Shown one piece after another: positions 3,396 to 24,552 of a stretch of 27,157 nucleotides of DNA. Source of the stretch: a virus; the IMG/VR virus record IMGVR_UViG_3300037246_000240, positions 1 to 27,157 of that record; one strand, written 5' to 3'. The notes beneath the pieces are model-generated. The model searched no databases and was not told where the DNA came from. It saw only the letters and a program-made list of their open reading frames with translations. How positions within the stretch are numbered: the stretch's first letter is position 1; each line of letters starts with the position of its first letter. The position numbers and the translations under genes were made by a program.

Positions 3396-4277
3396 TTAAT
3401 TACCCCCGTTTACAACTTCACTACCTTCAACAACACATTCCAGAGATACCAGACCTCTTAGATCATCTTGTACAATGAACTCAAGACTCTCACCGGCTGC
3501 AATTCTAATAACTGCACCCATCTTAGACTGACCACCGAATGTGATCCTGCCAGCGAACCCGAAAGCTCCCTGACTTGGATTTTTAGCTTCAAGTGATTGC
3601 CAATCATACATAGTACCCATCATGCCTATATTGCTTTTCCAATTCACGATGTTATGAGTTGTTCCATCAACTCTACGTATAACAAGACCTCTCGTTAATG
3701 CAGTTATATCACCGAACTCATCGAATGCTGTTGCTGTGGCCGTGATACATGTTATGATTATACGTACTATATCAAGGGTAATATCTACACCCGGATCAGC
3801 ACCACGTACTGTGAATATCTGTCGAGTACCACTACCGTCTACAGCCATATTAGTTGAACCTGTGCCAACAATATCACCCACAGCAAGAACACTATCTACC
3901 GGAGAATCCAGTGACAAGGTATTAGAATTAATATCAATGACATGGCCTACGTAGTATCGCTCTGTAGCATTATTGAATACTCCAATATAGTCGCCTATAT
4001 TAATACCTACAGCACTCGTCACGACAAGCTCATAATCATCAATCTCTGCCTGTGTTGTTAATGTGGTTGCATTCGTTACCTGCGCTGCGTGTATTATAAA
4101 TATAGGGGATGTCTGATCCTGTAATGTAACAGGCATAGAACCATTAGGCTCTAATACCAATTCAAGACCACTGGTATCTGTGATTATAGCACCTTTGGCA
4201 GCTCCCCAGTAACCGGCTGCTGTCGCCGGTGTTACATAAAACAGTACTGCGATTAATACAATAAAATACTTCTTCAT
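3396..4277 (-). CDS. Exported beta-rich protein with signal peptide (293 aa)
   Basis: The first 20 residues form a clear Sec signal peptide: MKK, a hydrophobic core FIVLIAVLFYV, then TPATA with cleavage likely just after. The mature part is about 270 aa, Thr/Gly/Val rich and beta-strand-like, without Lys/Arg clusters or membrane segments. There is a phage-like C-terminal stretch (LDIVRIIIT, FGDITALTRGLVIRR, TFGGQSKMGAVIRI, VQDDLRGLVSLE). Its ATG overlaps the small terminase stop in ATGA. In T7 the equivalent slot holds the spanin genes 18.5/18.7; this protein is not spanin-like (no inner-membrane coiled coil, no lipobox). It could be a periplasmic or surface protein, or a virion protein with an unusual leader. 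Function unknown. Confidence 0.85.
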   Translation of the reverse strand: MKKYFIVLIAVLFYVTPATAAGYWGAAKGAIITDTSGLELVLEPNGSMPVTLQDQTSPIFIIHAAQVTNATTLTTQAEIDDYELVVTSAVGINIGDYIGVFNNATERYYVGHVIDINSNTLSLDSPVDSVLAVGDIVGTGSTNMAVDGSGTRQIFTVRGADPGVDITLDIVRIIITCITATATAFDEFGDITALTRGLVIRRVDGTTHNIVNWKSNIGMMGTMYDWQSLEAKNPSQGAFGFAGRITFGGQSKMGAVIRIAAGESLEFIVQDDLRGLVSLECVVEGSEVVNGGN

Positions 4278-4564: not shown

Positions 4565-4810
4565 TTAAAATACATCTCTTATTTTAGCCATGACAGGCAA
4601 CCAGTGCTCACGTAGAGTCACCGATGTTATAATTGCAAGGACTGTAGCGAATGCTGTCTTGATGTTCTTAACAGTTCCTTCAGTCCGGATCATCCTGTCG
4701 TTCAGTTTGCAGTCGGCTCCGCTACAACCGACTGCAATATGTTTCTCAATCATCGTTATGATGTACTCTTGACGAGTCTCCATTACGACTAATCGTTCAG
4801 TGCTATCCAT
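4565..4810 (-). CDS. Holin candidate with one membrane segment (81 aa)
   Basis: The protein has an N-terminal amphipathic helix (about residues 1-26), a short middle with C29 and C34, one hydrophobic segment (about 52-66, TAFATVLAIITSVTL) and a charged C-terminal tail (LREHW, MAKIRDVF). Length, single membrane span and location directly upstream of the small terminase match T7 gp17.5, the class II holin. The coiled-coil-then-membrane layout also resembles XhlA-type proteins. AAAGGAG precedes the ATG. Holins open the inner membrane for lysis. The assignment rests on topology and position only. Confidence 0.6.
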   Translation of the reverse strand: MDSTERLVVMETRQEYIITMIEKHIAVGCSGADCKLNDRMIRTEGTVKNIKTAFATVLAIITSVTLREHWLPVMAKIRDVF

Positions 4811-5314: not shown

Positions 5315-7897
5315 TTATGTTTTAATAATATAGTTACAAGCAACGTACGGATTCAAGATGTTCTGAGTAGCACTTTCTGCGTACCCTGTATTACCTGTAC
5401 CACCAGAACCTGTTGTACCTGATTGGTTGTTTGTCCAATAGTCTTTGGTTCCTCTGGAAACTGAGCTTGTTGTGGATTTGGATAGGATTCCAACTGCTGA
5501 ACTCGTGTCTGTACCAAGATTGATCGCAGCACCGCCACTGTCATAAGCGTCAGCTGTACTAAAATCCCACCATTTATGATTATGATTCGGCGCTGAATGC
5601 GTATGACTCGGCCCTGTATGCCTATGGTAATTATTGAAAGTTTCTTGACCGGCTGTAGCACCCATAGCTACAGAACCGACACCTCTTGGTAACTTATCCA
5701 CCATATTCGGTACATTAAATGTAGTTGAACCATCACCGACACCGAAGGCTTCACCAATAACTGCGAACAGGTCTGCGTACACTGTACGATCTATAGCAGC
5801 ACCGTCACATAGTACGTAACCATCCGGTGCAACTGCGCCACCAAAAGGCATATAACAACCTGTAGGCGATCCACCGCCACCACTCGGAGCAATCCAAGCT
5901 GCATTCGAGCCATCTGTGGTTAGTACCTCATCTGTATGACCTGTCTGAACAGGCAATACATCTGTTTCATCCACACTATGCGGATTAGTTTCATCAGTTA
6001 AATGTGCTACGAATGGTGCTACTGTATCATCAGCATCTGATGCAGACTGTGCTGCATTCGCTTCAGACGTAGCGGCATTACCTGCTGATGTACTCGCATT
6101 ACTCTCTGCTAATTCAGCAGCGGTCTGTGCAGCCAGTGCATCAGTCCTTGAATCGAAAGCAGCAGCAGCATCGAACGCAGCATCAGCAGCACTTCCAGCA
6201 GCATTCGTCTCAGAAGTTCCAGCAGCATTCTCAGATGCTAAAGCATTCGTCTCACTTATACCGGCTGCAGTTTCACTTGCACCAGCATTCGTTTCAGAGG
6301 TGCTTGCATTAGATGCAGATGTAGCAGCATTAGATTCACTCGTTGCTGCATTGCCTTCAGATATACCAGCAGCAGTTTCACTGTCACTCGCATTATTCTC
6401 TGATGTCAAGGCATTAGCTGCTGACGTACTTGCAGCACTTGCGCTATTACCAGCATTTGTTTCTGATATACCAGCGTTAGTCTCAGATGTTCCTGCATTA
6501 GTTTCTGATACTCCTGCATTTGTCTCTGCTAATTCAGCAGCAGTCTGTGCTGTCTCTGCAAAGCCTTGAGCTGCTACTGCACCTGTTTCGGCAGTCTCAG
6601 CGTTCGTTTCAGCAGTCTGAGCATTCGTCTCACTTATGCCAGCATTGGTTTCACTCGTTGCTGCATTGTTCTCAGATACTAAGGCATTAGCAGCCGATGT
6701 ACTCGCCTGTCCTGCACTCGTACCTGCATTAGTAGCAGATGTACCTGCGTTCGTTTCCGAGATAGCAGCCGCATCTGCACTATCTGATGCATTACTTTCT
6801 GATATAGCAGCATTATCTTCTGAAGACTGTGCATTCGTTTCAGCGAGTTCAGCAGCAGTTTGAGCAACTTCTGCTAATCCTTGCGCTGTCTCTGCATTAG
6901 TCTCAGCAGTCTCAGCACTTACTTTAGCGGCAACTGCTCCTGTCTCAGCAAGCTCTGCTCCTGTCTGTGCTGACTCTGCGGCTGTCTCAGAATTACCCGC
7001 ATTTGTCTCGCTTATACCAGCATTTGTTTCTGAAGTCGATGCAGCATTTTCACTGGCTAAAGCATTAGTTTCAGATGTGGATGCATTCCCTTCGGATGTA
7101 CTGGCTGCATTCTCGCTTGCTAAAGCATTAGTCTCACTTGTAGATGCATTTGATTCGCTTGTTGCAGCGTTTGTTTCAGACACTCCTGCATTTGTTGCAG
7201 CAGTCTCAGCAAGGATTCTATCTGCTTCAACCCCTGCTTCACTACCTGCTGCATTACTTTCAGATATACCTGCTGCTGTCTCACTTGCAGAGGCATTAGA
7301 TTCACTTACTCCTGCATTAGTTTCAGACAATGCTGAAGCGACTTCAGACAAACCAGCCGCAACTTCACTTGCAAGAGCTGCATCCTTTGAGCCACTTGCA
7401 GCAGATGCGCTTGCACTTGCTGCCACAGCATCAGCAAAAGCCTTAGCTGCATGATGTAGACTTGAATATCCTCCAACTACGACCTCCGTATCTTCTATCT
7501 CTTCTGCCCACCTTCGGGCCAATTCTGTATAAGCTGCTGCCTCACTAACACTAATAGCACCTGAATCACCTGACTCTTGTGAGAGGTACAGGTACTGTGT
7601 ATTTACTAAATCCAATAATATCTCTGTGACTGGTTTACCTGCAAGCCAATCAACAAGAGCTTCTTCAGGACTTGTTTGTCTACGGAAGGATATGATTGTA
7701 CCATCTATCGGCACAGGATCAATCCGGACTTTCGTAGCGGTTAGGAATATCCTTGAACCTAACCCTTGTTCGAACTCACCGATGTAGTATTTAACATGAT
7801 CCTCTTCTACATAACCGGGACTCACCCCTGCGAATGTAAGATCATAATCACTTTGACCACCGGTGACTGTATGTGTATTTATACTGTATGTTGACAT
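5315..7897 (-). CDS. Tail fibre: T7 gp17-like N-terminus, T4-like collar tip (860 aa)
   Basis: This is the receptor-binding fibre. Residues 1-110 match the T7 fibre N-terminal domain that anchors to the tail (DYDLTFAGVSPGYV, ISFRRQTSPEEALVDW). Residues about 171-623 form a shaft of 7-residue repeats of the type S-E-T-N-A-x-x. A HLTDETNPHSV motif at about 632-642, common in phage fibres, precedes a phage tail collar domain (about 684-731: PFGGAVAPDGYVLCDGA, FGVGDGSTTFNVPN). The tip has three HxH pairs (H758/H760, H765/H767, H772/H774), as in metal-binding T4 gp12/gp37 tips, and ends NPYVACNYIIK. T7 gp17 is 553 aa; the extra length is mostly shaft. The gene follows the gp16-like gene by 2 nt with GAGGAG before the ATG. 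Confidence 0.95.
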   Translation of the reverse strand: MSTYSINTHTVTGGQSDYDLTFAGVSPGYVEEDHVKYYIGEFEQGLGSRIFLTATKVRIDPVPIDGTIISFRRQTSPEEALVDWLAGKPVTEILLDLVNTQYLYLSQESGDSGAISVSEAAAYTELARRWAEEIEDTEVVVGGYSSLHHAAKAFADAVAASASASAASGSKDAALASEVAAGLSEVASALSETNAGVSESNASASETAAGISESNAAGSEAGVEADRILAETAATNAGVSETNAATSESNASTSETNALASENAASTSEGNASTSETNALASENAASTSETNAGISETNAGNSETAAESAQTGAELAETGAVAAKVSAETAETNAETAQGLAEVAQTAAELAETNAQSSEDNAAISESNASDSADAAAISETNAGTSATNAGTSAGQASTSAANALVSENNAATSETNAGISETNAQTAETNAETAETGAVAAQGFAETAQTAAELAETNAGVSETNAGTSETNAGISETNAGNSASAASTSAANALTSENNASDSETAAGISEGNAATSESNAATSASNASTSETNAGASETAAGISETNALASENAAGTSETNAAGSAADAAFDAAAAFDSRTDALAAQTAAELAESNASTSAGNAATSEANAAQSASDADDTVAPFVAHLTDETNPHSVDETDVLPVQTGHTDEVLTTDGSNAAWIAPSGGGGSPTGCYMPFGGAVAPDGYVLCDGAAIDRTVYADLFAVIGEAFGVGDGSTTFNVPNMVDKLPRGVGSVAMGATAGQETFNNYHRHTGPSHTHSAPNHNHKWWDFSTADAYDSGGAAINLGTDTSSAVGILSKSTTSSVSRGTKDYWTNNQSGTTGSGGTGNTGYAESATQNILNPYVACNYIIKT
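6029..7387 (-). repeat. Heptad-repeat shaft of the tail fibre
   Basis: About 450 residues are built from 7-residue (21-nt) units rich in Ala, Ser, Glu, Asn and Thr, such as SETNAGI and SENAAST. A 20-residue block starting NASTSETNALA recurs after exactly 21 residues (250-269 and 271-290), and blocks around AETAQTAAELAETNA recur at 335-355 and 446-460. The underlying DNA of such copies differs at many synonymous sites. Similar Ala/Ser heptads occur in lambda Stf-type side fibres, where they form an extended trimeric shaft. Confidence 0.85.
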
Positions 7898-7899
7898 AC

Positions 7900-10800
7900 T
7901 TACTCCTCTTCGTTAAATGCAAACCTATTAATAACTCCTTTATTAAAGGCAGTTGAACCAAACCACGAACCTAATGGAAGTGCTCCAACGAGGGCGTTCC
8001 ATTCAGACTTACTTACGGATTCACCGGGAAGCATTCCACCGGCTACTCCTGTTATACCTTTAAAGGCCCGATCTGCATAGCCTAATCCGGGTACTTTACC
8101 TGTGAGTCCTTTACCATTACTATACTGACTTGTTCCAGTTAAGTGACCCCATGCATCAGGCATAACAGCACCGAATAGCATATCAGCACCATCTACCATA
8201 GGTGATAACTGACCATGATATCCAACAACCTTCTTAGTGATTGCTCTTAGATTCATGTTATTTTCTATATACTGCTTACGATCTGCAGCAGGTAATACAG
8301 CAGCATCAAAGACCATACGTGATACTACAGCCATAGTACTTGTTGCAATCATGTACTGAAATGCTTTAGCAGCCTCGACATCACCTTGTCTATACATCTG
8401 CCAATCGTGTACAGTCTGTTTACCAATAGCTGCAACAGAGAATGTTCTGAACTGTGACATAAACTTACCTAAACCACGATTCATCCATAGAGGAGTTTCT
8501 CCTGCTATGATATCCTGTATTGCATTACTCGACTTACGATGTAACATGTACGCCATTGTACGCCTGTTATCCGGACTCCAATTACCAAGACCTAATGTTT
8601 CTAATATACCATCCTTATTGAATGTAGCATGTTTCATCATATCAGCTTTAAGACTATCGAGCTGATCGAATGGAACACCTAAATCTTTAAGGCGTACCTC
8701 AGTCATTGTACCATCAGCAATCTCTCTGTACCATTTATGACCAAGAGCATTCATCAAGGTTTTCTTCTGTTGTGTATGAACCAGATGCCAACCTGATGCT
8801 TTAGACTGCCAGTAACTCATGCGATCTAAAAGTCTCTCAGAATCTTTAATCCTGTAACCAAAATCATCTGCACGCATACTCGGATGATTCATGTAATGAT
8901 CGTCACCGATCTTACCTATAGCCCATTCCTGTATATCTCTTACCATAGCGGTATCGAGTCTACCATCGTGCAAATCCATAATCATATCACGGATCATAGG
9001 AATCCCTTCCCATATATTCTTAACACCAGCAGCAGCCATAACACGGCCTGTCTCACCCGCCTGTACTATACCGAGTTTACCAAGAGATGCAGTTGCCATA
9101 AGTTTACGTACTACACGCATGGCTGCGAATCCTAACTGACCCATAGGTTCAATAGGTTCACCTTTAATCATTTTCCAACCCATCTCTAATCTCTGTATAT
9201 CCATTTGAATCTGTTTACCGTCTTGATCCCGATCTATACCATGCCTACGTACCTGTTCTACGAGGTCTTGGAACATCTCTTCAGATGCAATACCTTTACG
9301 AGCACCAGCAGCACGACCTAACCAATACCTTGTTTGCGAACTGAAGGTACTACCTAAGTCTGTATGCATAAGATCGAATATACGCAAACCTGATTGAGAA
9401 TCTTTATAACTGATCGTAATACCCATCTGATGTTTAGTTGGGTTAGCTTTCAAATCACGACCTGATGTATCTAACACAGCTTTGATATGACGTATTTCTA
9501 CATCACTTAAATTCGTATCTCTCAAAGCATCCAAGAGAAGACTCCTGTTAGCAGAACTTAATAAATTCGCATCTGCTGACATGGTTGTACCTCTGTGTAG
9601 GAATCGGTTATATAATGCTTGTGACATAGCTTTAGCCATAGCATCTACATCCGGCATATCATACTGAACTCTCTCAAGTTTAGGTTTCTTTACTGCTTTC
9701 TTTCTGACCTTAACCTTTTTCTTCTTGGCTTCAAGATCTGCAATCTTCGCTAAAAGCCTCTGCTCTTTAGCACCTTTACGTAGACCTTCAGGACTGATAT
9801 CACCCTTATCGAATTTAAGGGCCCTGATCTCTTTATTAATAGCCTTGATCTCTACGTCCATTGCCTTCTGAGCATCTTTAATCTCTTTAACATTAGCTTT
9901 ATCACGAGCCTTAATCTCTGCATCATACTTCTTCTGAAGTTTATCTAACGTCTTTGCGTAGTCAGCTTCAGCTTTCTTATGTGCTGTCTTGAATTCATTA
10001 CCATCAAGAATGGCATCTTTAATTGTACGTAGCACAGTTTCTTCACCGTACTTATGTTTAGCATCAAGGAACTTCTCCCCATCATAACCTCTTCCGAGAT
10101 GTCGTGGATCGAGTTCACCGGCTGCTTCTATAACACCAGCATCTTTCAATATCTGGTATGTAGTTTCATTTGTCTTAATATACAACTCTTCGAAACTTTC
10201 AACTAACTCCCTCATTTGTTTGGTAGCACCTGTTACGTGCTTACCTGTTTCAATAAAGGCGTAAGCTGCTTCATCGAATGTACTCTTTGCAGCATTACCT
10301 GATCTCTCATTTGCTACTTCCCATGCAGATTTAGTCCTCAAGAATTGAGGTGTATAATCAGCAGAGAACTTATGGAACTCAGTAGCAGTCTCAAGTGCTG
10401 CAGTTGTGTCATTCCATCTACCTGTACTTTCAGGGTATTCAAATAACTTACTTGCAGCCCATCTTGTAAATGGGTTCTCTGAGGTATGCATACTGTGACT
10501 CATTGATACGAGTCCTATCCTTTCATGCAAGAGGGTCTTAGCTTTAGGAAGTTGGCCTGTTGCAACTGCATGAATTACAGCAGCTACAGTCGGACTCTCT
10601 AAATCTATTGTTCTTTTAGTACCCGGAACAAAGTTCTCATCAAGTACTGAATCAACAGTTTTATTCATAGCCTTAACTTCAAGTGTACCTGCTTCGATAT
10701 CCTCTTTAGTCTTCTTTATAGTAGCATGTAAAGAACTCACGGCATCAGCATCAGTTGCGTATGGAACTGCATTATGATTATCCATAGTTTCATCAATGGT

Positions 10801-11568
10801 ATCTTTCATATGAGCTTTACCGAAGTTATCTGTAACTTCATCCATATGATGTGCCATATTAACATCAGCCCTCTTAGCTGCACCACCTAATGTACCTAAC
10901 CAACCTAAACCCATACCCATTGTACCAGCTACGATGTAATCTGTTGCTGTTCTATCTTTATACATCTCATTAATAAAAGCCTCTTCAACAACATTGGCTG
11001 TACCAACTACTGCACCGGCTGTAAGGAATCTACGTAGCTTATTAGCTTTCTGTAATCCGGATAAACCGAATGAGAAGTAATTAGGTACATTCGCTAACTC
11101 AGCAACAAGCTGCAATCCCATTGTGGGAAGCAGTCCTAAATCCTGAGCATTTAACATGAATTGTCTTTTACCTTTGATACGTTCTTTAAGTACTTCATAA
11201 TGTTCCGGGGATTTAGACTCTTTAATGAGTTCTATCTCCCATTGCGCTTTAGGACGGAATGTAGCTTCATCGGTTTGGAGTGCGTCTTTAAGAACGAAAT
11301 CCTCTTCAACTCTATAACTCGCTACATCCTCATACATCGTTTTAGCGATGCCTGTCCCGGTTTCATATTTATGAGCCCCTGAGATACCTGTCCATATAGA
11401 GGCTGTATTATCTTCAAGGGCTTGTCTGTGCGCCTGTTCTTCACGGAGCATTGCATCTGAATTCTGTCTTACATTCAATGCCCTTTGAACATTAGGATCA
11501 TCTTTCAAACTTCTTACAGGGGCGGTATCGAAATCACCGATCCCTGTTTCCTCTAATATATCTGCCAT
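7900..11568 (-). CDS. Internal core / ejection protein, gp16-like (1222 aa)
   Basis: Its place between the gp15-position protein and the fibre, and its size (T7 gp16 is 1318 aa), identify it as the large internal core protein ejected into the cell envelope to help DNA entry. T7 gp16 starts with a lytic transglycosylase domain; no such domain or Glu motif is apparent in this N-terminus. Residues 140-230 contain hydrophobic stretches (GLLPTMGLQLVAELA, FLTAGAVVGTANVV, IVAGTMGMGLGWLGTLGG) that could be membrane-active. Residues about 525-640 are Lys/Glu-rich coiled coil with a KKKKVKVRKK basic block. Residues about 1026-1056 (GLGKFMSQFRTFSVAAIGK) resemble the conserved C-terminal region of gp16-like proteins. 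AAAGGA precedes the ATG. Confidence 0.85.
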   Translation of the reverse strand: MADILEETGIGDFDTAPVRSLKDDPNVQRALNVRQNSDAMLREEQAHRQALEDNTASIWTGISGAHKYETGTGIAKTMYEDVASYRVEEDFVLKDALQTDEATFRPKAQWEIELIKESKSPEHYEVLKERIKGKRQFMLNAQDLGLLPTMGLQLVAELANVPNYFSFGLSGLQKANKLRRFLTAGAVVGTANVVEEAFINEMYKDRTATDYIVAGTMGMGLGWLGTLGGAAKRADVNMAHHMDEVTDNFGKAHMKDTIDETMDNHNAVPYATDADAVSSLHATIKKTKEDIEAGTLEVKAMNKTVDSVLDENFVPGTKRTIDLESPTVAAVIHAVATGQLPKAKTLLHERIGLVSMSHSMHTSENPFTRWAASKLFEYPESTGRWNDTTAALETATEFHKFSADYTPQFLRTKSAWEVANERSGNAAKSTFDEAAYAFIETGKHVTGATKQMRELVESFEELYIKTNETTYQILKDAGVIEAAGELDPRHLGRGYDGEKFLDAKHKYGEETVLRTIKDAILDGNEFKTAHKKAEADYAKTLDKLQKKYDAEIKARDKANVKEIKDAQKAMDVEIKAINKEIRALKFDKGDISPEGLRKGAKEQRLLAKIADLEAKKKKVKVRKKAVKKPKLERVQYDMPDVDAMAKAMSQALYNRFLHRGTTMSADANLLSSANRSLLLDALRDTNLSDVEIRHIKAVLDTSGRDLKANPTKHQMGITISYKDSQSGLRIFDLMHTDLGSTFSSQTRYWLGRAAGARKGIASEEMFQDLVEQVRRHGIDRDQDGKQIQMDIQRLEMGWKMIKGEPIEPMGQLGFAAMRVVRKLMATASLGKLGIVQAGETGRVMAAAGVKNIWEGIPMIRDMIMDLHDGRLDTAMVRDIQEWAIGKIGDDHYMNHPSMRADDFGYRIKDSERLLDRMSYWQSKASGWHLVHTQQKKTLMNALGHKWYREIADGTMTEVRLKDLGVPFDQLDSLKADMMKHATFNKDGILETLGLGNWSPDNRRTMAYMLHRKSSNAIQDIIAGETPLWMNRGLGKFMSQFRTFSVAAIGKQTVHDWQMYRQGDVEAAKAFQYMIATSTMAVVSRMVFDAAVLPAADRKQYIENNMNLRAITKKVVGYHGQLSPMVDGADMLFGAVMPDAWGHLTGTSQYSNGKGLTGKVPGLGYADRAFKGITGVAGGMLPGESVSKSEWNALVGALPLGSWFGSTAFNKGVINRFAFNEEE

Positions 11569-11571
11569 AAT

Positions 11572-14500
11572 TTATCCTTTACGTATTATTTCAACAAGTT
11601 CTTTACCTCTGCCTTTAACCTGTGTATACCATTTGCTATCAATTAAAGTTTCTGCAACTTCATTCCAGTCAATCTTATCTCTGGACATAGCCTCAGTGAA
11701 GTCAGGCCATTCTTTACCTTTCTTCTTATTCCATCCACCACCTAAATTAAATGTGATGTCAATCAAGGCTGCTTTCCTCGCGTTACTCGCTTTAGAATAA
11801 CCGGGCAATTTCTCAGCAGCTTTCTTATGTGAAGCATAGTCTTTCTGGAACATTGCTAAAGCCTCTGGCTTTGTAACCGATTTAGTAGGCTTAGTTGCAC
11901 TCCAATGACCATAACCTATCGCCCATCCACCCTTATCTTTATAGGGTTCAGATCGGAAACCTTCATGCCTTTTAAGCATAGTCTTAATAGGTTCATCATT
12001 TAATTCACCTGTATCTGCTACGGAGAACTTTACCTCATTCTCTGTTTGAACTTCAGCAACAGGTTCTACAGTAGGTTCTGCAACAGGTGTATCAAGACCT
12101 AAATCCTGAGCTACACGATCTGCAGGATTCACATAACCAGCAGGTTTGCGATCAAACATACCGCCTGTGAATGTCCTTTGATTAGGATCAAGTCCACCTT
12201 CTTCAGAAAGCGGTATCTTCTTATCGAAGTCGATACCTACCTTTACCATACTGTATTCAATAGCCTTTTTCGCCATACCCATTGCACCACTATACTGAGC
12301 TTCATAGAAGTTCTGCCGTGAAATGGCTTTCTCTGGTTCAGATAATCTTAGGTATTCATGAGTTGGAATTAAACCATAGTTCATACCTATTGAAGTATTG
12401 ATAACATTAGTAAGGAACTCAGCATTCAAATCTCTCTGCTCTAATACCCACTCCTTTATTTCACCTGTAGGATTACCTGAGTCGTATTCCTTATAGTACG
12501 CATGTATCTGTTCATTAGAATACTCACCATGCTTCTCAGCAGCAAGAGCTGCACCTATGTAATTGCCCGGTATATATAATACACCAGCTTCAGGGTTCAT
12601 AGGATTACTGAGTTCTAAGTACCCTGTATCTTCGTTAATGTTAATACGTGCTCTTGATGTATCAACTTTAATTTTATCCCATCCATCACCACTGACATCA
12701 GCAGCCATAAGTTTTTGCTGGTTTATTTTGGCTTGAAATGACTGATCGGCAGTTAGAACTCTTTCATCTCCAAAAATCCCCTGTATGAAAGCTACTGCAC
12801 CTATCTGAGACATCCAACCAGTTTGCTCCATTGGTACATCTTTTGCACCGAATGCAATACCCTCTTTTATACCGAACATTTCTTTCATTCTACCTTCATA
12901 TTTCAGATCATCTTTCAAGAGATCAATACCAACATCTATCTGACTTGTACTACATCCAAGAATAGAAGCAGCTACCGTTGGTTTAATCATAAGTAACTGA
13001 TTGTCAACAACTACACTGTTCTGTACTAAATTCTTTATAGCCAAATTCTTTGCATCCTCCGGATTATGTCCTGATTTCCTAAGTCGTGCTATGTCGGCTA
13101 ATACAAAGGCTTCAGCTTGTATCGTCTTTTCAGGGTCACGCCACAACCCACTCCATCCCACCTTTGTATTGAATGCATCATTAACAGCATCTAACGCTAC
13201 TTCCTGTTCTTCGTCTGTATACTCTGCGTATGTTTCATGAGCCTTATTATCTGTATCGATGTTATCAAGAATTGTAGCAACTATAGGGTATGTCTCTTCT
13301 ATCGGCCCTGCGGTACGTGCTAAGTTACTTTGAATAGCTACGTAACTTTCTAATGAATCATCCATATACTCTGCGAACTTACGTGCACCAGCAATAGGAG
13401 CCTCACTCATTAGACCTTTCTCAAAAGCCTCAATAGCTTTAAAACTCTGTAACGATTCTGGATTAATTGTACCATCTTTAAATGTCATAGGCATAGCATC
13501 AAACATTTTTACTTGGGATTGGAACTGTTTCCATATACTATCCTGTTTTACAACGTGTTGACCCATACCATACAGAACAGTAGGCATATCATCGGGATTC
13601 TCTGTTACCAACCCATCGTACAAACTACCCATAGTACCTGCGAACTGAGCAGGGGTTCCTTGTATATTTACACCGGCTTTAGCCTGACGTAAGTGTTTCT
13701 CTTCTGTGAATATTCTATCACGATTCACTTCAGATTTAGTGAACATACTTTTAATCTTGGCTTCAGTGTATACTTGTCTCCCTTTCTTATCAGCCAATAA
13801 AGCCATTTGTGCTACTGATTCCTCAGTGAGTATGCCTTGCTCCATAAGCGATTCGTACTGATCTTTCTGAGTATCTATCTCAGCTAAATCTAAACCATCA
13901 CGAGTATACTTCGCCTGTATTATAGCAGTATCATACAAACCTTTAAACGAAGATACATCATAACCGAACTGAAGATTCAATGCCTCTAACACTTCAATGT
14001 CACCTGTCTCTACTGCACTTTTAGCAGCACCCATGAAAGCAGCTTTCGATATCGCTTCAGGGTCTAACAGATTATATTTAGGATCAGACAATGTATTTAT
14101 ATAATGATCTATAGTTGTATTAGGGTCTTTTGCTAACTGTGATACATGTAGAGTAAGATTCATACCCTGTTTCTTCTTCTGGTCTAATCTCCATCTACCA
14201 TTTTGAGCAGCTACAAGAGCAGGTTGCTGTTTAAGCATATAGTTATTGTACGCACCTATAGCCATACCAGCATTAGGATTATTTTTCCAAGATTCCCTGT
14301 ATACTCGATGTCGTTCTTTAACGTCTGCTTGATAGCCTTCCGGAGTCATTTCATCGTAATCTCCGTTATCTATCGCAAGAGCTTCCTCAGACCATCCCTG
14401 CTGTGCTTGAAGTTCTGCTGTGCTAACTGCGTACATAGCTTCAGTATGCTGTCTATCTGGATTAATCGCATCATTAATCATATCGTTCTGTGCATCAAGT

Positions 14501-14667
14501 TGTGCATTAATGTCCTGCTGATCTGCCACCGATGCGGCGATACCAGCAGCTAATGCACCCATCTGAGATATAACTGTTGATGTTTGACTTGATCTACCAC
14601 GAGTTGATCGTACTGTACGCCCACCTGTATCAATAGGGCTGCCGAATTTTGTTCTTTCTAATGCCAT
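11572..14667 (-). CDS. Internal virion protein (gp15 position) with C-terminal GH24 lysozyme domain (1031 aa)
   Basis: Position between the gp14-like and gp16-like genes marks it as the second core protein; T7 gp15 is 747 aa. Residues 1-850 are mostly helical with no recognised motif. A Pro/Val/Glu-rich linker (about 860-880) leads to a T4-lysozyme-type domain from about residue 890: E902 in RHEGF, D911 in PYKDKGG, then AIGYGH, and later the family pattern ALIDITFNLGGGW and a C-terminal KGRGKEL helix. The usual third residue, Thr in T4-type enzymes, is Ala916 here (GCG at plus 11920-11922), and the loop is one residue shorter. It probably degrades peptidoglycan during genome ejection, replacing the transglycosylase of T7 gp16. 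GGAGGG precedes the start. Confidence 0.88.
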   Translation of the reverse strand: MALERTKFGSPIDTGGRTVRSTRGRSSQTSTVISQMGALAAGIAASVADQQDINAQLDAQNDMINDAINPDRQHTEAMYAVSTAELQAQQGWSEEALAIDNGDYDEMTPEGYQADVKERHRVYRESWKNNPNAGMAIGAYNNYMLKQQPALVAAQNGRWRLDQKKKQGMNLTLHVSQLAKDPNTTIDHYINTLSDPKYNLLDPEAISKAAFMGAAKSAVETGDIEVLEALNLQFGYDVSSFKGLYDTAIIQAKYTRDGLDLAEIDTQKDQYESLMEQGILTEESVAQMALLADKKGRQVYTEAKIKSMFTKSEVNRDRIFTEEKHLRQAKAGVNIQGTPAQFAGTMGSLYDGLVTENPDDMPTVLYGMGQHVVKQDSIWKQFQSQVKMFDAMPMTFKDGTINPESLQSFKAIEAFEKGLMSEAPIAGARKFAEYMDDSLESYVAIQSNLARTAGPIEETYPIVATILDNIDTDNKAHETYAEYTDEEQEVALDAVNDAFNTKVGWSGLWRDPEKTIQAEAFVLADIARLRKSGHNPEDAKNLAIKNLVQNSVVVDNQLLMIKPTVAASILGCSTSQIDVGIDLLKDDLKYEGRMKEMFGIKEGIAFGAKDVPMEQTGWMSQIGAVAFIQGIFGDERVLTADQSFQAKINQQKLMAADVSGDGWDKIKVDTSRARININEDTGYLELSNPMNPEAGVLYIPGNYIGAALAAEKHGEYSNEQIHAYYKEYDSGNPTGEIKEWVLEQRDLNAEFLTNVINTSIGMNYGLIPTHEYLRLSEPEKAISRQNFYEAQYSGAMGMAKKAIEYSMVKVGIDFDKKIPLSEEGGLDPNQRTFTGGMFDRKPAGYVNPADRVAQDLGLDTPVAEPTVEPVAEVQTENEVKFSVADTGELNDEPIKTMLKRHEGFRSEPYKDKGGWAIGYGHWSATKPTKSVTKPEALAMFQKDYASHKKAAEKLPGYSKASNARKAALIDITFNLGGGWNKKKGKEWPDFTEAMSRDKIDWNEVAETLIDSKWYTQVKGRGKELVEIIRKG

Positions 14668-15394: not shown

Positions 15395-17905
15395 TTATTG
15401 TGTTCTCCGGCCTCTCTCTTGGTATTTACAAATCCAATCCACATCAAGCACATTGAAAGGTAAATGACTCGTAGAGCCTATTGTTATTGTACATCGTTCT
15501 GCTGCACTCCTTATAGGGACTTTGATACTCACGTCCTGTAAAGGTGCATGCGAATTCAGTAGATACTCAGGGTCACTAATCGTCTGAGCGTTATATTCTT
15601 TAATGTATGTAACCGAATGACTCTTATCAACGATTATATATAACTCGCCGGTTTGAGCACAATTAAATTTCATACTTTTATACGTTGTTCTTGCTGTAGT
15701 TAAAGGACTTCCTTGACCATCCCTTACATAAGGGTTCGTGATTTCTGCATAAGCCTCGTACTCAATACCTACATAGAAGTATGGCAATCCTACTGCATCT
15801 GGCATCGATTCTGTCGGAACCAATATAGTACGATCATCCACATCGATCATGTAATCTACGGCTGCTCCTTCAATACCTGAGTTCTCTGCACCTATTACCT
15901 TAATAGCATCAAGGTGTGCATCAAGCCATGTATTATCTATAGCAGAGTACAGACCATCTAATACATCAACCAAAGTGAAATCACCATTAACAGTATCAGC
16001 TTGAACCTTTATAGTAGTATCGAGTTTCAACGGGAATGCAATACCTTCGGAATCTGTTGTAGACAAATCAATCGTCATGTATCCTGTACCTATACCACCC
16101 TCTTCATTATACCACAAATACAATACATCTCTTACAATTTTCATATATGTTATATCTTGAGGGAGTATCCATTCATGCCATGCAGCTTGCTTACGTGTAT
16201 TATCCTGATCGAACCATTCATAAACGAATATCTTCTCAGGGGCCCCTTCTGTTCTTATAAGTAGGATATCATAATCTGTACTTGATTCTACCTGTAAACA
16301 TTTCCCGGGCATGTACTCTCTAACGTGCGTTGTAATTGATTCAGCCATAACTGTTCCTGTTAATGCATCTGTTTTGAATTCTCTTACTCCGGTATATGTA
16401 CCGAAGCTATACGGAAAGAATGCACTGTTAGCTGAAGCAACAGGTGCAGCAGTTGTATCCATACTGTACCGTGATTTCGATACTAAAGCGAATGTCTTAG
16501 ATGTAAACAAGGCATCTGCTGGATGTAAGAACTGAGCCCTATCTGAGAATATCATCAAGGATGCATCGAAGACGAGCAGATGGTTCAATTCAGTTACATC
16601 ATTATCTGATGATACTGCATCAATAGGATCATCATCTGAAGCTACTATCACTGATTGTGAGAAGCAGTTGAAATGATCGTACGCAACCGATGCAAAACAA
16701 TTCTCGTCATTCAACATAACAATCCTATTCTGATACAAACCTATTCCAGAGATTGTTTTACCTATAAACGATGGTTGCGGATTAGAGTTATCATCACCGG
16801 CTGTTCTATCAATCCAATCTATGAGTTCAAAATCAAATTCACCTGTAGTACCATTACGTATTAATTGATGTGGCATTGTTGTTGGATTAATACGAGTAAA
16901 CGAATCAAACCCTACGCACTCAGCCCAATGTCCTGTCAGTATCCTATCAGTCTCTTCTGAAACCGGAATTACATCTGCTACGAACCTAACGTAATAATCA
17001 TTATCACTATCAGGATCAACGCCTGTGATCTTTATTTTATAGTCATGTACACACTTCTCTGGTAAATCATCATAATCCGTACTTACACGACCTATTGCTT
17101 TAATATCGTTATTATTATTATCATCTGTAACTTCTACACTATATGATTCTTCATCAGACCACATAACGAGTTGACCTTCATTAGCGTCTAATTCAAAGAA
17201 TACATTACCATTACCAACTCCTGCATGAGCTGCAAGCCACGCATCCAACCCTATACCACCGTCTGTACCACTCCTAAGTCCATTTATAATGGTAGTAGTT
17301 TTAAGTGTAATAGCTTTATTAGATTGTATCGTACTTGAAGTTTGCTGCAAAGTTACTGTAGCTGCTGCATTGTATTGTGCAACTAATACGTTATCTATCT
17401 TAACTCTGTAATTCATACCGAAACTTGCTTTGACACAATGTATTACCATTGTCCAGAGATGTTCATCATCCTTTGTATCCATTACCGGAGTTGCTGATGT
17501 ATTGCATACAAATGTTGTATCAGCTATTGTAAAGAATTTCATGAACTCTCTTGCAGGTCTACCATCTCCGGAATAATCCTGTATATAATCAAATGATGCT
17601 CCCTCATTAACAGTCTTCTCTATACCGTTTACTATATCAACTACATGGATATGATCCAGATGTGATGATATAGTATATCGTTCAGTACCATCGCCTCTAT
17701 CGTACGTATGTTTAGCTGCCTCACCAAAATCCTCTATAGCGAATACAGGGGAATTTAATACAGCTCCTGTTCTTTTGCCTAATCCAGATGTAATCGAACT
17801 ACGGCAATTCACCTGAGAACCAACCTGTTCAGGCCGGCGATCTCTTCGTGACTGCTGTGATACACCTTGAAGTAGGTTATTTATATTGCCGTTATATGTC
17901 GTCAT
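15395..17905 (-). CDS. Tail tubular protein B, gp12-like (836 aa)
   Basis: The start NINNLLQGVSQQSRRDRRPEQ followed by NCRSSITSGLGKRTG matches the diagnostic opening of T7 gp12 (xIxNLxxGISQQ...R.P.Q...N..SS...GL.KR). T7 gp12 is 794 aa. This protein forms the nozzle at the distal end of the short tail and carries the fibre sites. The rest is beta-rich with many Asp/Asn turns. CAGAGG precedes the ATG, and the gene begins 2 nt after the tail tube A stop, so the two are co-translated. Confidence 0.95.
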   Translation of the reverse strand: MTTYNGNINNLLQGVSQQSRRDRRPEQVGSQVNCRSSITSGLGKRTGAVLNSPVFAIEDFGEAAKHTYDRGDGTERYTISSHLDHIHVVDIVNGIEKTVNEGASFDYIQDYSGDGRPAREFMKFFTIADTTFVCNTSATPVMDTKDDEHLWTMVIHCVKASFGMNYRVKIDNVLVAQYNAAATVTLQQTSSTIQSNKAITLKTTTIINGLRSGTDGGIGLDAWLAAHAGVGNGNVFFELDANEGQLVMWSDEESYSVEVTDDNNNNDIKAIGRVSTDYDDLPEKCVHDYKIKITGVDPDSDNDYYVRFVADVIPVSEETDRILTGHWAECVGFDSFTRINPTTMPHQLIRNGTTGEFDFELIDWIDRTAGDDNSNPQPSFIGKTISGIGLYQNRIVMLNDENCFASVAYDHFNCFSQSVIVASDDDPIDAVSSDNDVTELNHLLVFDASLMIFSDRAQFLHPADALFTSKTFALVSKSRYSMDTTAAPVASANSAFFPYSFGTYTGVREFKTDALTGTVMAESITTHVREYMPGKCLQVESSTDYDILLIRTEGAPEKIFVYEWFDQDNTRKQAAWHEWILPQDITYMKIVRDVLYLWYNEEGGIGTGYMTIDLSTTDSEGIAFPLKLDTTIKVQADTVNGDFTLVDVLDGLYSAIDNTWLDAHLDAIKVIGAENSGIEGAAVDYMIDVDDRTILVPTESMPDAVGLPYFYVGIEYEAYAEITNPYVRDGQGSPLTTARTTYKSMKFNCAQTGELYIIVDKSHSVTYIKEYNAQTISDPEYLLNSHAPLQDVSIKVPIRSAAERCTITIGSTSHLPFNVLDVDWICKYQERGRRTQ

Positions 17906-18549: not shown

Positions 18550-19593
18550 TTAAGCAGCTTTCTTTGAGATGATACCATTAACATCAGTACGATCCGGTGC
18601 AGCACCGAAAGCAGTATACATATCAATGAACCACGTCAGGAGACGTTTCTCCCAGTAGACATCAGATGTCATAGGAATAGATTCAGCAACCATGATTGAA
18701 TCAGGAGTTGCGTATACAGCTACAGCATCAGCATCAGTTACAGATGTTTCGTAGTGACCATCGCCTGTATCATAAAGAGCAGCAACAGAATCAACTTTAG
18801 CAGGAGCAGCAACTGTATCCTCTTCCTGAGTAAGTCTGTTGGTCATTACAAGAACCATACCAGATGCAACGTCAATTGCAGCATGGGCGTAAGAACCATT
18901 CTCTTTAGAGATATCTCTGTTAAGCAGCGCATCATTCTTCAACAGTGTGAAGTACTGAGCAGGGGCCATATAGAGTTTGCCGTCATTCTGATCGATATCC
19001 AGTTCAGCAAGACCCTGTGCAATAGCATATACCGCAGTAGTCAGCTTAGTGTAATCGAGTTCATCACCATCAGCAGCCAAATCAATAGCTGTACCACCCG
19101 GAAGGATACCACCAGAACCTACGTCCTTGTTAGTACCGCCAGCAGGGGCAGTCGGATGTGTATAAAGAGCAGATTTAACACACTGAACGAAGAGAACTTC
19201 ATCCTGTGAAACGGCAAGCTGTTTGCCGAAGTTGCCCGGAGTCTTACCTTTGATATCCAGATGATCCTGTACTGTTGCCAACATCGGAGTCGTAACTCGT
19301 GCAATGACAGGTGTCTTAACCTGAACGATCATTTTACCTACATCAATGGATTTACCATCGGGTTCTACACCAGCTACAACCTTCTGTAGTTCTGGATTTC
19401 CCATAGTGTTATTAGACATAGTATCTGTACCAATCAGGGGCATGAATTTAAACACACCATCTGTGATAGATGCTTTACGCATGATATCATGTACAGTACC
19501 TTCGAATTTTTCAATGGTCAGAGCGAATTTATCAGTAGACTGATTCTCTGACATAGGGTACATAAGTCCCGCGGAGATGTCCTGTAATGCCAT
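18550..19593 (-). CDS. Major capsid protein, gp10-like (347 aa)
   Basis: HK97-fold shell protein; T7 gp10A is 345 aa. Family signs are KFALTIEKFEGTVHDIMRKASI near the start (E-loop region), VQVKTPVIARVTT, and the C-terminal APAQYFTLLKNDALLNRDIS and VLVMTNRL, which parallel T7 gp10 (PPATYSLL...FINRD...VETPHL). The gene has its own promoter P2 and its own terminator, as expected for the most abundant protein. AAAAGGAAC precedes the ATG. No slippery site leading to a long extension is seen near the stop, so a T7 10B-like frameshift product is unlikely. Confidence 0.95.
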   Translation of the reverse strand: MALQDISAGLMYPMSENQSTDKFALTIEKFEGTVHDIMRKASITDGVFKFMPLIGTDTMSNNTMGNPELQKVVAGVEPDGKSIDVGKMIVQVKTPVIARVTTPMLATVQDHLDIKGKTPGNFGKQLAVSQDEVLFVQCVKSALYTHPTAPAGGTNKDVGSGGILPGGTAIDLAADGDELDYTKLTTAVYAIAQGLAELDIDQNDGKLYMAPAQYFTLLKNDALLNRDISKENGSYAHAAIDVASGMVLVMTNRLTQEEDTVAAPAKVDSVAALYDTGDGHYETSVTDADAVAVYATPDSIMVAESIPMTSDVYWEKRLLTWFIDMYTAFGAAPDRTDVNGIISKKAA

Positions 19594-19676: not shown

Positions 19677-20573
19677 TTACACAGCGTACCTTTTACCGTC
19701 TCGGACGTTGTGCCATGTTCCCGGCATTACAGTCTGAGAGTCCATACCCTTTGATTTCAGACGATCTGCATCTACTTTTGCAGCATAGATACGATCTGTC
19801 TTATATTTATCAGTTGCAATGATAGTTTGAAAATCACGTTTTGTCATGAAATGAAAACCTTTATCACCTGCGTTACTTGCATCACCACTCATACGGTTAT
19901 TACCCCTTCCTGTTAATTTTTTATACGCCTGTACAGCCTGTTTCATACCTTCATCAACAAGCAAGGTATTATCAGAACGTAACTTAGCGTTAATTACATC
20001 GATCTCATTCTGAGGGAGATTCGACTTCAACGCCCCTGCGAGAATCTTGAACTTATCTTCACCACCTACACTATCGTAGATACGTTTATTCATCGCCTCT
20101 TTAGCGGAATTAGTTTCACTAAGGTCAGTATCAGCATTTTTCTTCTTCTCTGCCTGAGCGACCGCTAACTCGTCCTGAAGGGCATCTGCGTATGCGTCAA
20201 CATCTTCGGCATTGAATTTCTCTTTTAATTCAGCCCGGAGTGCATCAGATACTTTACCCTCTTTAGCGACACGATCAAAGATATCTTGTTCTTTAAATCC
20301 TTCTGCTTCCAGAGCTTTCGTGATCTCGTCAACGTCTGTTGATTCATCGTTCGATTCTGCTGGAATTTTAGGTTTCTCGTCTTCATTCGGAGCAGGTTCT
20401 TCTATCTTACCTGCTTCATTTGTTGTAACTAAATCAATCTCAGGGAGTCCTGTATCAACTACCGGCTCAACAACTGGCTCGTCTACAACGATGTTGTCTA
20501 AAACCGGTTCAGTGATTACACCCTCTTCCTTCAATTTAGCTGCTGTGTCTTCGTTCAAACCTGCGAATGCCAT
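19677..20573 (-). CDS. Scaffolding protein, gp9-like (298 aa)
   Basis: Acidic internal scaffold that guides procapsid assembly; T7 gp9 is 307 aa. The N-terminal half is very acidic with repeated Val/Pro/Glu (VVDEPVVEPVVD, NEDEKPKIPAES). The middle is helical (DALRAELKEKFNAEDVDAYA, DELAVAQAEKKKNAD). The C-terminus is more basic (KKLTGRGNNRM, TKRDFQTIIATDKYK), which in scaffolds often binds the coat. It lies between portal and capsid, with AAGGAGG before the ATG. Confidence 0.9.
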   Translation of the reverse strand: MAFAGLNEDTAAKLKEEGVITEPVLDNIVVDEPVVEPVVDTGLPEIDLVTTNEAGKIEEPAPNEDEKPKIPAESNDESTDVDEITKALEAEGFKEQDIFDRVAKEGKVSDALRAELKEKFNAEDVDAYADALQDELAVAQAEKKKNADTDLSETNSAKEAMNKRIYDSVGGEDKFKILAGALKSNLPQNEIDVINAKLRSDNTLLVDEGMKQAVQAYKKLTGRGNNRMSGDASNAGDKGFHFMTKRDFQTIIATDKYKTDRIYAAKVDADRLKSKGMDSQTVMPGTWHNVRDGKRYAV

Positions 20574-20588
20574 TCGGCCTCCTTATTA

Positions 20589-22157
20589 TTATTGTTGGTT
20601 CATACCTGCTGCGATATCCTCTGGTTCAGACTTATCTATAAGAGCTTCACCAGCTATCTGGCCTTCCTGTGCTTTAGCCTTTGCCTGTTGCTCTGCCAAA
20701 TAATCATCCTCTGACTTCACGATTGAAGTATCGATATCACGACCTGTACCGAGTTTAGTCATTAGCGCACTTGAATTCAATCTGGCTAAGAACTGTTCTG
20801 GTACACTATTCAATGCTGCTAAGTCTTCAAAGAAATTCAGAATCTTCTCATTATCAGAAGCTCTACCCATAGCATCCAAACCTGTTAGTATCACAGGCTC
20901 AATGCTTGAGTCTTCAACCAAGACATCTACATCACGTAGAATCAGAGTTGCCATAGGTGCTTGCAATGTAAGAGCAAGATTACCGAATACACCACCATGA
21001 GCTTTATTAAGTTCTGCAGCCCTCATTCTATTTTCTTGTGCTGTAACCCTTTCTGCATCACGCATCTGAGAGGACAGTACAAGGAATATTTTACCGAGTT
21101 GTTTTCGGTACATATCAACTAACTGCATTACGATATCTAATTCATCACGTTTCCCCATGTCAATTACATTAACATCTTCTGGATTACCGTAATGATAAGT
21201 ACCGGATGCTGCGTTATTCATTTCAACTACATCAACCATACTTCCGGGTTTAACCAAGAATTTATAGTCTGTTGATATAGCTCCTGCTGTCACAAGGGCT
21301 TCAACGAGAATTGACATAGCATAGAATGCTCCGTAATGATCTTCAACAAGACCACGACCCCATGTTTCTCTACGGACTCTATTCCAGTACGTAGGAATCC
21401 ACGGTAGGAGATGTTCCTTATATGAACTTTGTTCACCAATCGGCACAGCCTCTAATGCCTGATCTACAAGGAACGTCTCTGGATTATCTTTATCACGCCT
21501 GATGTACGTATATATACTCGCATGATGTTTCGTCATGTCTGTATTATCATCGATAGCATCATCAGCAGCTATCACTTGAGCACGTAAATCTGCATCAAGG
21601 GACATCAATGCTTTCTTATCTACCGTAATAATTTCTAACAATTTACCGGATAAATCCCTGTACATTACGTATTCATCGATAGCGTAATTCTGTACGAGTT
21701 CTTCATCTGGAAGTGCATACAGTAATGCATTCCCGGCTACTATGAGTTGTTTTATATGATCCAGAATAGCAACCCTTGCGTGTTTCTTCTCGAATTTCCA
21801 TCGGGCTTCATTTTCAGTTAGAGCAAATAATGCTTCAATGTCAACTGAATCCTCGCCTGATCCTTCTTCAGCCTCTTTCATTTCTTCTACAGGCATCTGA
21901 AGTTTAAAGAAACTACGATGAGCAGGGAACATCTCATCAACGTATGTATTAGAGAGATGATTAACGTACTCTGATCCTACGCCAGCGTAATCAATCAGCA
22001 TCTCTGTTACAGCATTATCACCTTCTTCTGGAATCAGATAAGGTAATGTGATCTTACTGTATTTTTTCGCTCGATCTAAGTAAGGGGCACGAATACCAAC
22101 TAACTCATTATATCGAGAGAGTATATCACCTTCTACGGGTGCATTTGTATCTTCCAT
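20589..22157 (-). CDS. Portal (head-tail connector), gp8-like (522 aa)
   Basis: The portal is the dodecameric ring at the packaging vertex; T7 gp8 is 536 aa. The start ILSRYNELVGIRAPYLDRAK with SKITLPYLIPEE is the family opening (Y..L...R.PYL.RA...A..T.P.L.P). Further on, AGVGSEYVNHLSNTY, WIPTYWNRVRRETWGRGLVEDHYG and LSSQMRDAERVTAQENRMRAA all match T7-type portals, the last being the clip/stem region (RDAERVTAEE.R). The Gln/Ala-rich tail ends IAAGMNQQ. AAGGGG precedes the ATG. Confidence 0.95.
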   Translation of the reverse strand: MEDTNAPVEGDILSRYNELVGIRAPYLDRAKKYSKITLPYLIPEEGDNAVTEMLIDYAGVGSEYVNHLSNTYVDEMFPAHRSFFKLQMPVEEMKEAEEGSGEDSVDIEALFALTENEARWKFEKKHARVAILDHIKQLIVAGNALLYALPDEELVQNYAIDEYVMYRDLSGKLLEIITVDKKALMSLDADLRAQVIAADDAIDDNTDMTKHHASIYTYIRRDKDNPETFLVDQALEAVPIGEQSSYKEHLLPWIPTYWNRVRRETWGRGLVEDHYGAFYAMSILVEALVTAGAISTDYKFLVKPGSMVDVVEMNNAASGTYHYGNPEDVNVIDMGKRDELDIVMQLVDMYRKQLGKIFLVLSSQMRDAERVTAQENRMRAAELNKAHGGVFGNLALTLQAPMATLILRDVDVLVEDSSIEPVILTGLDAMGRASDNEKILNFFEDLAALNSVPEQFLARLNSSALMTKLGTGRDIDTSIVKSEDDYLAEQQAKAKAQEGQIAGEALIDKSEPEDIAAGMNQQ

Positions 22158-23739: not shown

Positions 23740-24552
23740 TTAATCTTGTGGTAATTCATGCCCTCTCAGACGTAATTCAAGCCTGCAAAGTGCGTTCCAT
23801 GCAACCATGTAATCATGCGGAAGATGCAACTCATCATCCTCTTGGACACCATTCTCAGGGCCCTCTTGGAAATAATGCCTCCACATAGCCGCTGTGTAAC
23901 GCCTACGGGCATTAGGAACATCTTTGAATGAACCACGTACATATTTGACACAGCCCTTCATACTGACCTGACAGACAGCTCCTAATGCAAGAGGGAAATA
24001 TTCAAGGAGAGACATGTCTGCTTTCCCACCATCGAATTTCATATCATCTCCGGTCTTACTTTCTGCAACCTTCTCAGCAAGCTCCAGGAAATGATCATCA
24101 TTCGGATGTATTTCTAACTGGCGGTACTGCATGAAACCGAAGCATTTATTACAAAGGGTTAGACCTTGGTACTCACACGAGTCGCATTTAGTAACATCTG
24201 GTGCAGCTATATCTTTTATCGGATCACCCTTCGGTTCAACGTACCCTTCAACGTGTTTAAGATCACCTTCGTACATAGGGTGATCGTCAACGATAATCTG
24301 ATCTGGCCTCATACCACGGATTTCACCGAAGTCTATCGGCTCTTTAGGGCCACAGTGCGCGAAACACTTATCTTGATAGATGCCGGGTGTTATACAGGTA
24401 TTCTGACCTGCGTGTATACAGTCTGTACATGCGCCATGTACAACTTGTGGTTCGTATTTATCATCTGCAATGCAGTCACCCACTTTAGTATGACATTCAC
24501 CTTCTTCCATACCGCAAGGGGCATGCTTACATGAGTTACATTTATCGAACAT
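23740..24552 (-). CDS. Cys-rich protein with dATP/dGTP diphosphohydrolase-like domain (270 aa)
   Basis: The last 100 residues match the phage family named dATP/dGTP diphosphohydrolase, N-terminal: KFDGGKADMSLLEYFPLAL (about 172-190), GCVKYVRGSF (about 200-209), AAMWRHYFQEG, and EDDELHLPHDYMVAWNALCRL (about 238-258), with the expected His and Asp positions. The N-terminal 140 residues instead hold three Cys clusters: C5/C8/C13/C20/C27, C42/C45/C53/C63/C67 and C123/C126/C134/C137, all with CxxC pairs that look like zinc sites. Members of this family are thought to act in nucleotide metabolism. It is the last gene before promoter P3. AGGAGG precedes the ATG. Confidence 0.75.
   Translation of the reverse strand: MFDKCNSCKHAPCGMEEGECHTKVGDCIADDKYEPQVVHGACTDCIHAGQNTCITPGIYQDKCFAHCGPKEPIDFGEIRGMRPDQIIVDDHPMYEGDLKHVEGYVEPKGDPIKDIAAPDVTKCDSCEYQGLTLCNKCFGFMQYRQLEIHPNDDHFLELAEKVAESKTGDDMKFDGGKADMSLLEYFPLALGAVCQVSMKGCVKYVRGSFKDVPNARRRYTAAMWRHYFQEGPENGVQEDDELHLPHDYMVAWNALCRLELRLRGHELPQD

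Follow-up and report, generated by a model that had tools for sequence, protein, structure and literature searches.

Lysozyme domains on the internal protein at the gp15 position are already known from phiKMV, SP6, K1E/K1-5 and PhiM1. One review counts phiKMV gp36 among the virion lysins, together with SP6 gp36 and K1-5, and gives 4800 U/mg and heat stability for the phiKMV lysozyme domain (PMC5380687). According to a review of ejection proteins, the gp15-like proteins of K1E and K1-5 bear the lysozyme activity that is found on gp16 in T7, and domain swapping among ejection proteins is called thematic (PMC8954989). In the PhiM1 ejectosome structure, a lysozyme-like domain is seen on the octameric gp15-position protein (PMC11440229). 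Solved chains in the PDB come from phiKMV (28sd, 9sfd, 9sfn), PhiM1 (8vb2) and a KP34 relative (23sg). A preliminary description of the locus studied here had implied that such an arrangement was new, which these phages contradict.

The late gene block and its lysozyme domain

The window, meaning the whole stretch of DNA analysed, is a viral record of 27,157 bases with a T7-like late block encoded on the minus strand (Table 1), in which the terminase subunits are also encoded. The gene order is nozzle, gp14, 1031-aa protein, gp16 and tail fibre. Since the 1031-aa protein lies between the gp14-like and gp16-like genes, it occupies the position of T7 gp15, and its gp15 assignment comes from gene order alone. 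For the first ~880 residues no relative was found by sequence, the scan of viral contigs included, and the same scan with the nozzle protein as query found no close relatives. Nor did blastp, phmmer and hhalign detect a relation of these 880 residues to phiKMV gp36, SP6 gp36 or other gp15 proteins, which diverge strongly. A full-length model made from the single sequence, without alignment, is poor (mean pLDDT 36). The source of the protein is a single metagenome-derived record, itself a fragment.

Table 1. Late gene block of the window and predicted active-site residues of the lysozyme domain
Feature	Position	Strand	Evidence
Head-tail connector	20589-22157	-	late gene block
Scaffold	19677-20573	-	late gene block
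Capsid	18550-19593	-	late gene block
Nozzle	15395-17905	-	late gene block
gp14-like internal protein, 235 aa	14678..15385	-	PF24072 T7_gp14, E 3.6e-15
Internal (ejection) protein at the gp15 position, 1031 aa, lysozyme domain at the C-terminus	11572..14667	-	ORF; flanked by gp14-like (PF24072) and gp16-like (phrog_342) genes
GH24 (T4-lysozyme-type) domain, residues ~892-1031	11575..11994	-	PF00959; AF2 model; T4 lysozyme match
Glu902, predicted general acid (T4L Glu11)	11962..11964	-	alignment and codon
Asp911, predicted general base / water-activating residue (T4L Asp20)	11935..11937	-	alignment and codon
Ala916 (GCG) at T4L Thr26 position, preceded by a loop with one residue less than that of T4L	11920..11922	-	alignment and codon
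Arg1020, T4L Arg145 equivalent	11608..11610	-	kept in 98/99 aligned domains
gp16-like internal protein, 1222 aa, transglycosylase undetectable	7900..11568	-	phrog_342, E 4.7e-100
T7-type tail fibre	5315-7897	-	late gene block

The Phage_lysozyme family (Pfam: PF00959) has a single match in the entire record, in the last 140 residues of the 1031-aa protein (residues 899-979, E 5.4e-13, scoring 49.8 bits where the cut-off is 22.3). For residues 880-1031, the AlphaFold2 model built with 45 aligned relatives has a mean pLDDT of 93.0 and a pTM of 0.88, and Foldseek matched it to T4 lysozyme (T4L) and T4 gp5. VIA-align superposed model positions 13-152 on T4L 1-156 with Z 16.3 and an rmsd of 1.8 over 134 residues. 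The profile match above the curated cut-off and the T4-lysozyme fold both place the domain in GH24, and E 5e-13, pLDDT 93 and Z 16 rule out a chance resemblance. Together with the gene order, these results uphold what had been proposed before, a GH24 domain at the C-terminus of the gp15-position core protein, and the coordinates and residue numbers given for it are correct.

The gp16-like protein had been described as free of a transglycosylase domain, and none is detectable in its 1222 residues. No SLT domain is found at E<=1 anywhere in the record, so the N-terminal SLT of a T7-type gp16 is missing. The phrog_342 match starts at residue 35 with profile column 200, which leaves too few residues upstream for an N-terminal transglycosylase. 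In an alignment that is weak (identity 12-21%), 35 residues of the gp16-like protein stand opposite the endolysin-like insert of PhiM1 (261 residues), a region in which the gp16 proteins of KP34 and PhiM1 have 229-261 residues. A hidden enzyme in gp16 was thus rejected: Pfam gives no SLT, and in this weak alignment an internal insert of the PhiM1 type looks absent. Another candidate, a second endolysin at 23740-24552 (-), was also rejected: it matches phrog_5033 (‘endolysin; inhibits RNA polymerase’), yet Pfam finds an N-terminal dATP/dGTP diphosphohydrolase domain. The phrog_5033 label on this gene looks misleading. The Pfam and PHROG family searches recognised no other peptidoglycan-cutting domain in the record, and by these profiles the lysozyme domain is the sole recognised peptidoglycan-cutting part of the predicted virion.

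The 27,157-base fragment has no recognised endolysin, holin or spanin. Two further proteins were noted. A 293-aa protein (3396-4277, minus strand), between the large and small terminase genes, has a signal-peptide-like start (MKKYFIVLIAVLFYVTPATAAG) and no family match, and an 81-aa protein (4565-4810, minus strand) has a possible membrane segment close to its C-terminus.

Active-site residues and the length of the catalytic loop

The motif of the domain is EGFRSEPYKDKGGWAIGYGHW, in which Glu902-x8-Asp911-x4-Ala916 is followed by IGYGH. The canonical motif Glu-x8-(Asp/Cys)-x5-Thr is therefore absent. In the alignment with T4L the pairs are E11/E902, Y18/Y909, D20/D911, T26/A916, G28/G918, G30/G920 and H31/H921, followed by F104/F973, G107/G976, S136/S1011, W138/W1013, Y139/Y1014, Q141/Q1016 and R145/R1020. 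The structural aligner prints ranges and not residue pairs, and the equivalence of A916 and T26 comes from the sequence alignments and their agreement with these ranges. The Thr26 side chain of T4L helps to position water. A misaligned catalytic Thr is ruled out: residues 911-921 contain no Thr or Ser that could fill the catalytic position, and therefore the Ala substitution is real under any alignment of the loop. Its codon, GCG, was read in a single record. The E-x8-D spacing, the loop shorter by one residue and the Ala at the Thr position were thus all described correctly.

Among 99 aligned GH24 domains the Glu is invariant and the Asp nearly so. The third triad residue is Thr in 58, Ser in 30 and Ala in 11 of them, counts which are not natural frequencies as the set was partly chosen by motif. 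The Ala recurs, for example in phage phiB1_1 and contig L013. Like the window domain, phiKMV gp36 departs from the canonical motif (x4 and Ser), and therefore the motif does not bound the active GH24 enzymes.

In a scan of all viral contigs for D..G-x-[X]-IGYGH, 50 stretches had Ser (counting TCN codons only), 10 had Ala and two had Thr, a few of them being non-lysozymes. The pattern longer by one residue gave Thr in at least 120 cases and Ala in 13, and most of these 13 are really E-x8-D-x4-A with a YDD sequence. Counting distinct viral domains with the Glu in register, and covering those with an IGYGH core, E-x8-D-x4 is followed by Ser in 28, Ala in 10 and Thr in one (Ser/Ala in 38/39), and E-x8-D-x5 by Thr in 97 and Ala in three (Thr in 97/100). 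Bacterial genomes were sampled as well, T, S and A being allowed, and in them the long loop with this core has Thr in 91/91 domains. On the best tree, for which the loop columns were left out, there are about 13 switches of loop length. Among the branches with support, four independent pairs nearly always follow the expected direction, a number too small for significance. A short loop thus comes with the absence of Thr, and the combination recurs.

The coupling is seen alike in virion proteins and in small endolysin-sized proteins. Since small endolysin-sized GH24 domains, too, can combine a short loop with a residue other than Thr, a virion-only short-loop subfamily is ruled out, and with it the earlier idea of a subfamily specialised for virion use.

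The published structures of this endolysin family are all x5-Thr (PMC8228626). We found no description of the coupling between loop and residue in the papers that could be searched, and it is the sole part of the case for which that search gave none. We tentatively suggest, at somewhat below even chances, a recurrent short-loop class of GH24 (Glu-x8-Asp-x4-Ser/Ala), in which a one-residue deletion after Asp, arisen several times, would make the third residue dispensable or lead to its replacement. The window domain would be an extreme (Ala) member, working as a Glu-Asp dyad. The textbook Glu-Asp-Thr motif misses such a natural class, and motif-based annotation would wrongly call its domains dead. 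The association between loop and residue also gives a simple testable prediction on the role of Thr26 in T4-type lysozymes.

Activity and mechanism

It is likely that the window domain is a virion-associated GH24 muramidase of a T7-like podovirus, located C-terminally on the ejection protein at the gp15 position and arranged as in phiKMV gp36. In our analysis it is probably an ordinary and active short-loop form of the phiKMV-type virion muramidase. Ala916 is probably compatible with normal activity, and alanine recurs in related lysozymes. From the predicted fold, the gene order, the residues, the precedents and the association between loop and residue, we infer how packaging, ejection and catalysis might proceed. 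The 1031-aa protein would be packaged in the internal core, and its lysozyme domain would probably enter the periplasm by ejection when infection begins, there to cut the MurNAc-GlcNAc bond locally and let the ejection channel cross the peptidoglycan. Glu902 would serve as acid and Asp911 would activate water. With Ala916 the water-positioning side chain would be lost, at a short-loop position that is normally Ser or Ala and probably not essential.

A different mechanism or weak activity had been considered in the preliminary description, and we found no direct support for either. In the GH24 endolysin Lys68, the Thr35Ala mutant has an activity similar to wild type and Glu18Ala is inactive (PMC4188523). 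Because the Glu and Thr of Lys68 have no Asp between them and its mechanism may differ, this precedent for the window domain is supportive but imperfect, and not decisive. In the literature searched we found no enzymatic assay of a natural D-x4-A domain.

The loss of the third residue and the shortened loop might instead belong to a decaying domain, still folded as a lysozyme but with weak activity or none, whose only role in the core would be structural or to bind peptidoglycan. Such decay does happen at this position in relatives, as the domains of KP34 gp47 and of the PhiM1 gp15-position protein have lost the Asp as well. For the window domain we consider it improbable. Of the other key residues of the cleft, those checked, among them Glu, Asp, His, Trp, Gln and Arg, are intact, and the phiKMV domain, with short loop and Ser, is active by the value quoted in the review (PMC5380687). 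Moreover, the insert region of gp16 has only 35 residues here against 229-261 in KP34 and PhiM1, and therefore a dead domain would leave the virion without a recognised enzyme.

A different catalytic route (retaining, substrate-assisted or transglycosylation), conceivable because the water-positioning Thr is missing, because T26H converts T4 lysozyme from inverting to retaining so that this position can set the stereochemistry (PMC2976769), and because a single-Glu retaining route was proposed for Lys68 (PMC4188523), is very improbable, given that Asp911 is kept in the exact E-x8-D register, that the loop DKGGWAIGYGH offers neither a new acid nor a His or another obvious nucleophile in place of the Thr, and that short-loop Ser/Ala domains are numerous and scattered over the tree.

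Comparison with known lysozyme domains

T4 lysozyme and T4 gp5 share with the window domain the fold, the Glu and Asp and the equivalents of His31, Trp138, Gln141 and Arg145. They differ from it in Thr26 and in a loop longer by one residue.

The nearest domain sequences, with 38-45% identity, lie in large proteins of the cyanophage S-SSM5 and of contigs L001, L103, L040 and L060. S-SSM5 is a T4-like phage, and the T7-like gene block was not seen in any of these five records. In the domains of S-SSM5, L001, L002 and L103 the loop is long and the residue is Thr, unlike in the window domain, and those of L040 and L060 have E-x8-D-x4-Ser with the same short loop. In the latter two (L040:2-487 and L060:4081-4566), D-x-G-G-M-S replaces the D-K-G-G-W-A of the window, a sister short-loop series with Ser. 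In the tree the window domain clusters, with modest support, with L001, L002, L103, L180, S-SSM5, L040 and L060, mostly domains within large proteins, and not with the phiKMV domain. As it groups apart from the latter, lysozymes may have been joined to the gp15-position protein more than once, as far as a tree of few columns suggests.

SP6 gp36, the K1E/K1-5 gp15-like proteins and the gp15-position protein of the T7-like contig L013 also carry a lysozyme domain in this position, and the short D-x4 loop has Ser in SP6 gp36 and Ala in L013. Unlike the window domain, they form part of another branch of GH24, in which the domain is longer and Glu and Asp are separated by an insertion. In SP6 gp36 the domain is followed by a C-terminal tail, which the window protein does not have.

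In KP34 gp47 (L024:6244-8928), annotated with a lysozyme motif, the corresponding stretch reads KFEGFREGKGKGSVGFGLH, and in the PhiM1 gp15-position protein (L217:3474-6188) it reads SYEGYTPSKGFSVLGVHP. Both have the Glu and have lost the Asp and several loop residues. These domains may be decayed or glutamate-only enzymes.

Protein 39 of phiB1_1, an isolated Pseudomonas phage of the Krylovirinae, agrees with the window protein in gene position, C-terminal GH24 domain and E-x8-D-x4-Ala. Its domain falls in the phiKMV clade, whereas that of the window falls, with weak support, with T4-like and cyanophage lysozyme domains. The window adds a distant phage to those that bear the entry lysozyme on the gp15-position protein rather than on gp16.

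phiKMV gp36 (Autographiviridae, Krylovirinae) is like the window protein in its gp15 position between the gp14-like and gp16-like genes, in its C-terminal GH24 domain and in the E-x8-D spacing with a one-residue-shorter x4 loop and a non-Thr third residue. The gp16-like protein of phiKMV, too, has no Pfam SLT domain. In contrast, phiKMV gp36 has Ser where the window has Ala, the identity between the two domains is just 26%, and its N-terminal part is not recognisably related to that of the window protein. The region that aligns with the endolysin-like insert of PhiM1 is covered by phiKMV gp37 but not by the gp16-like protein of the window.
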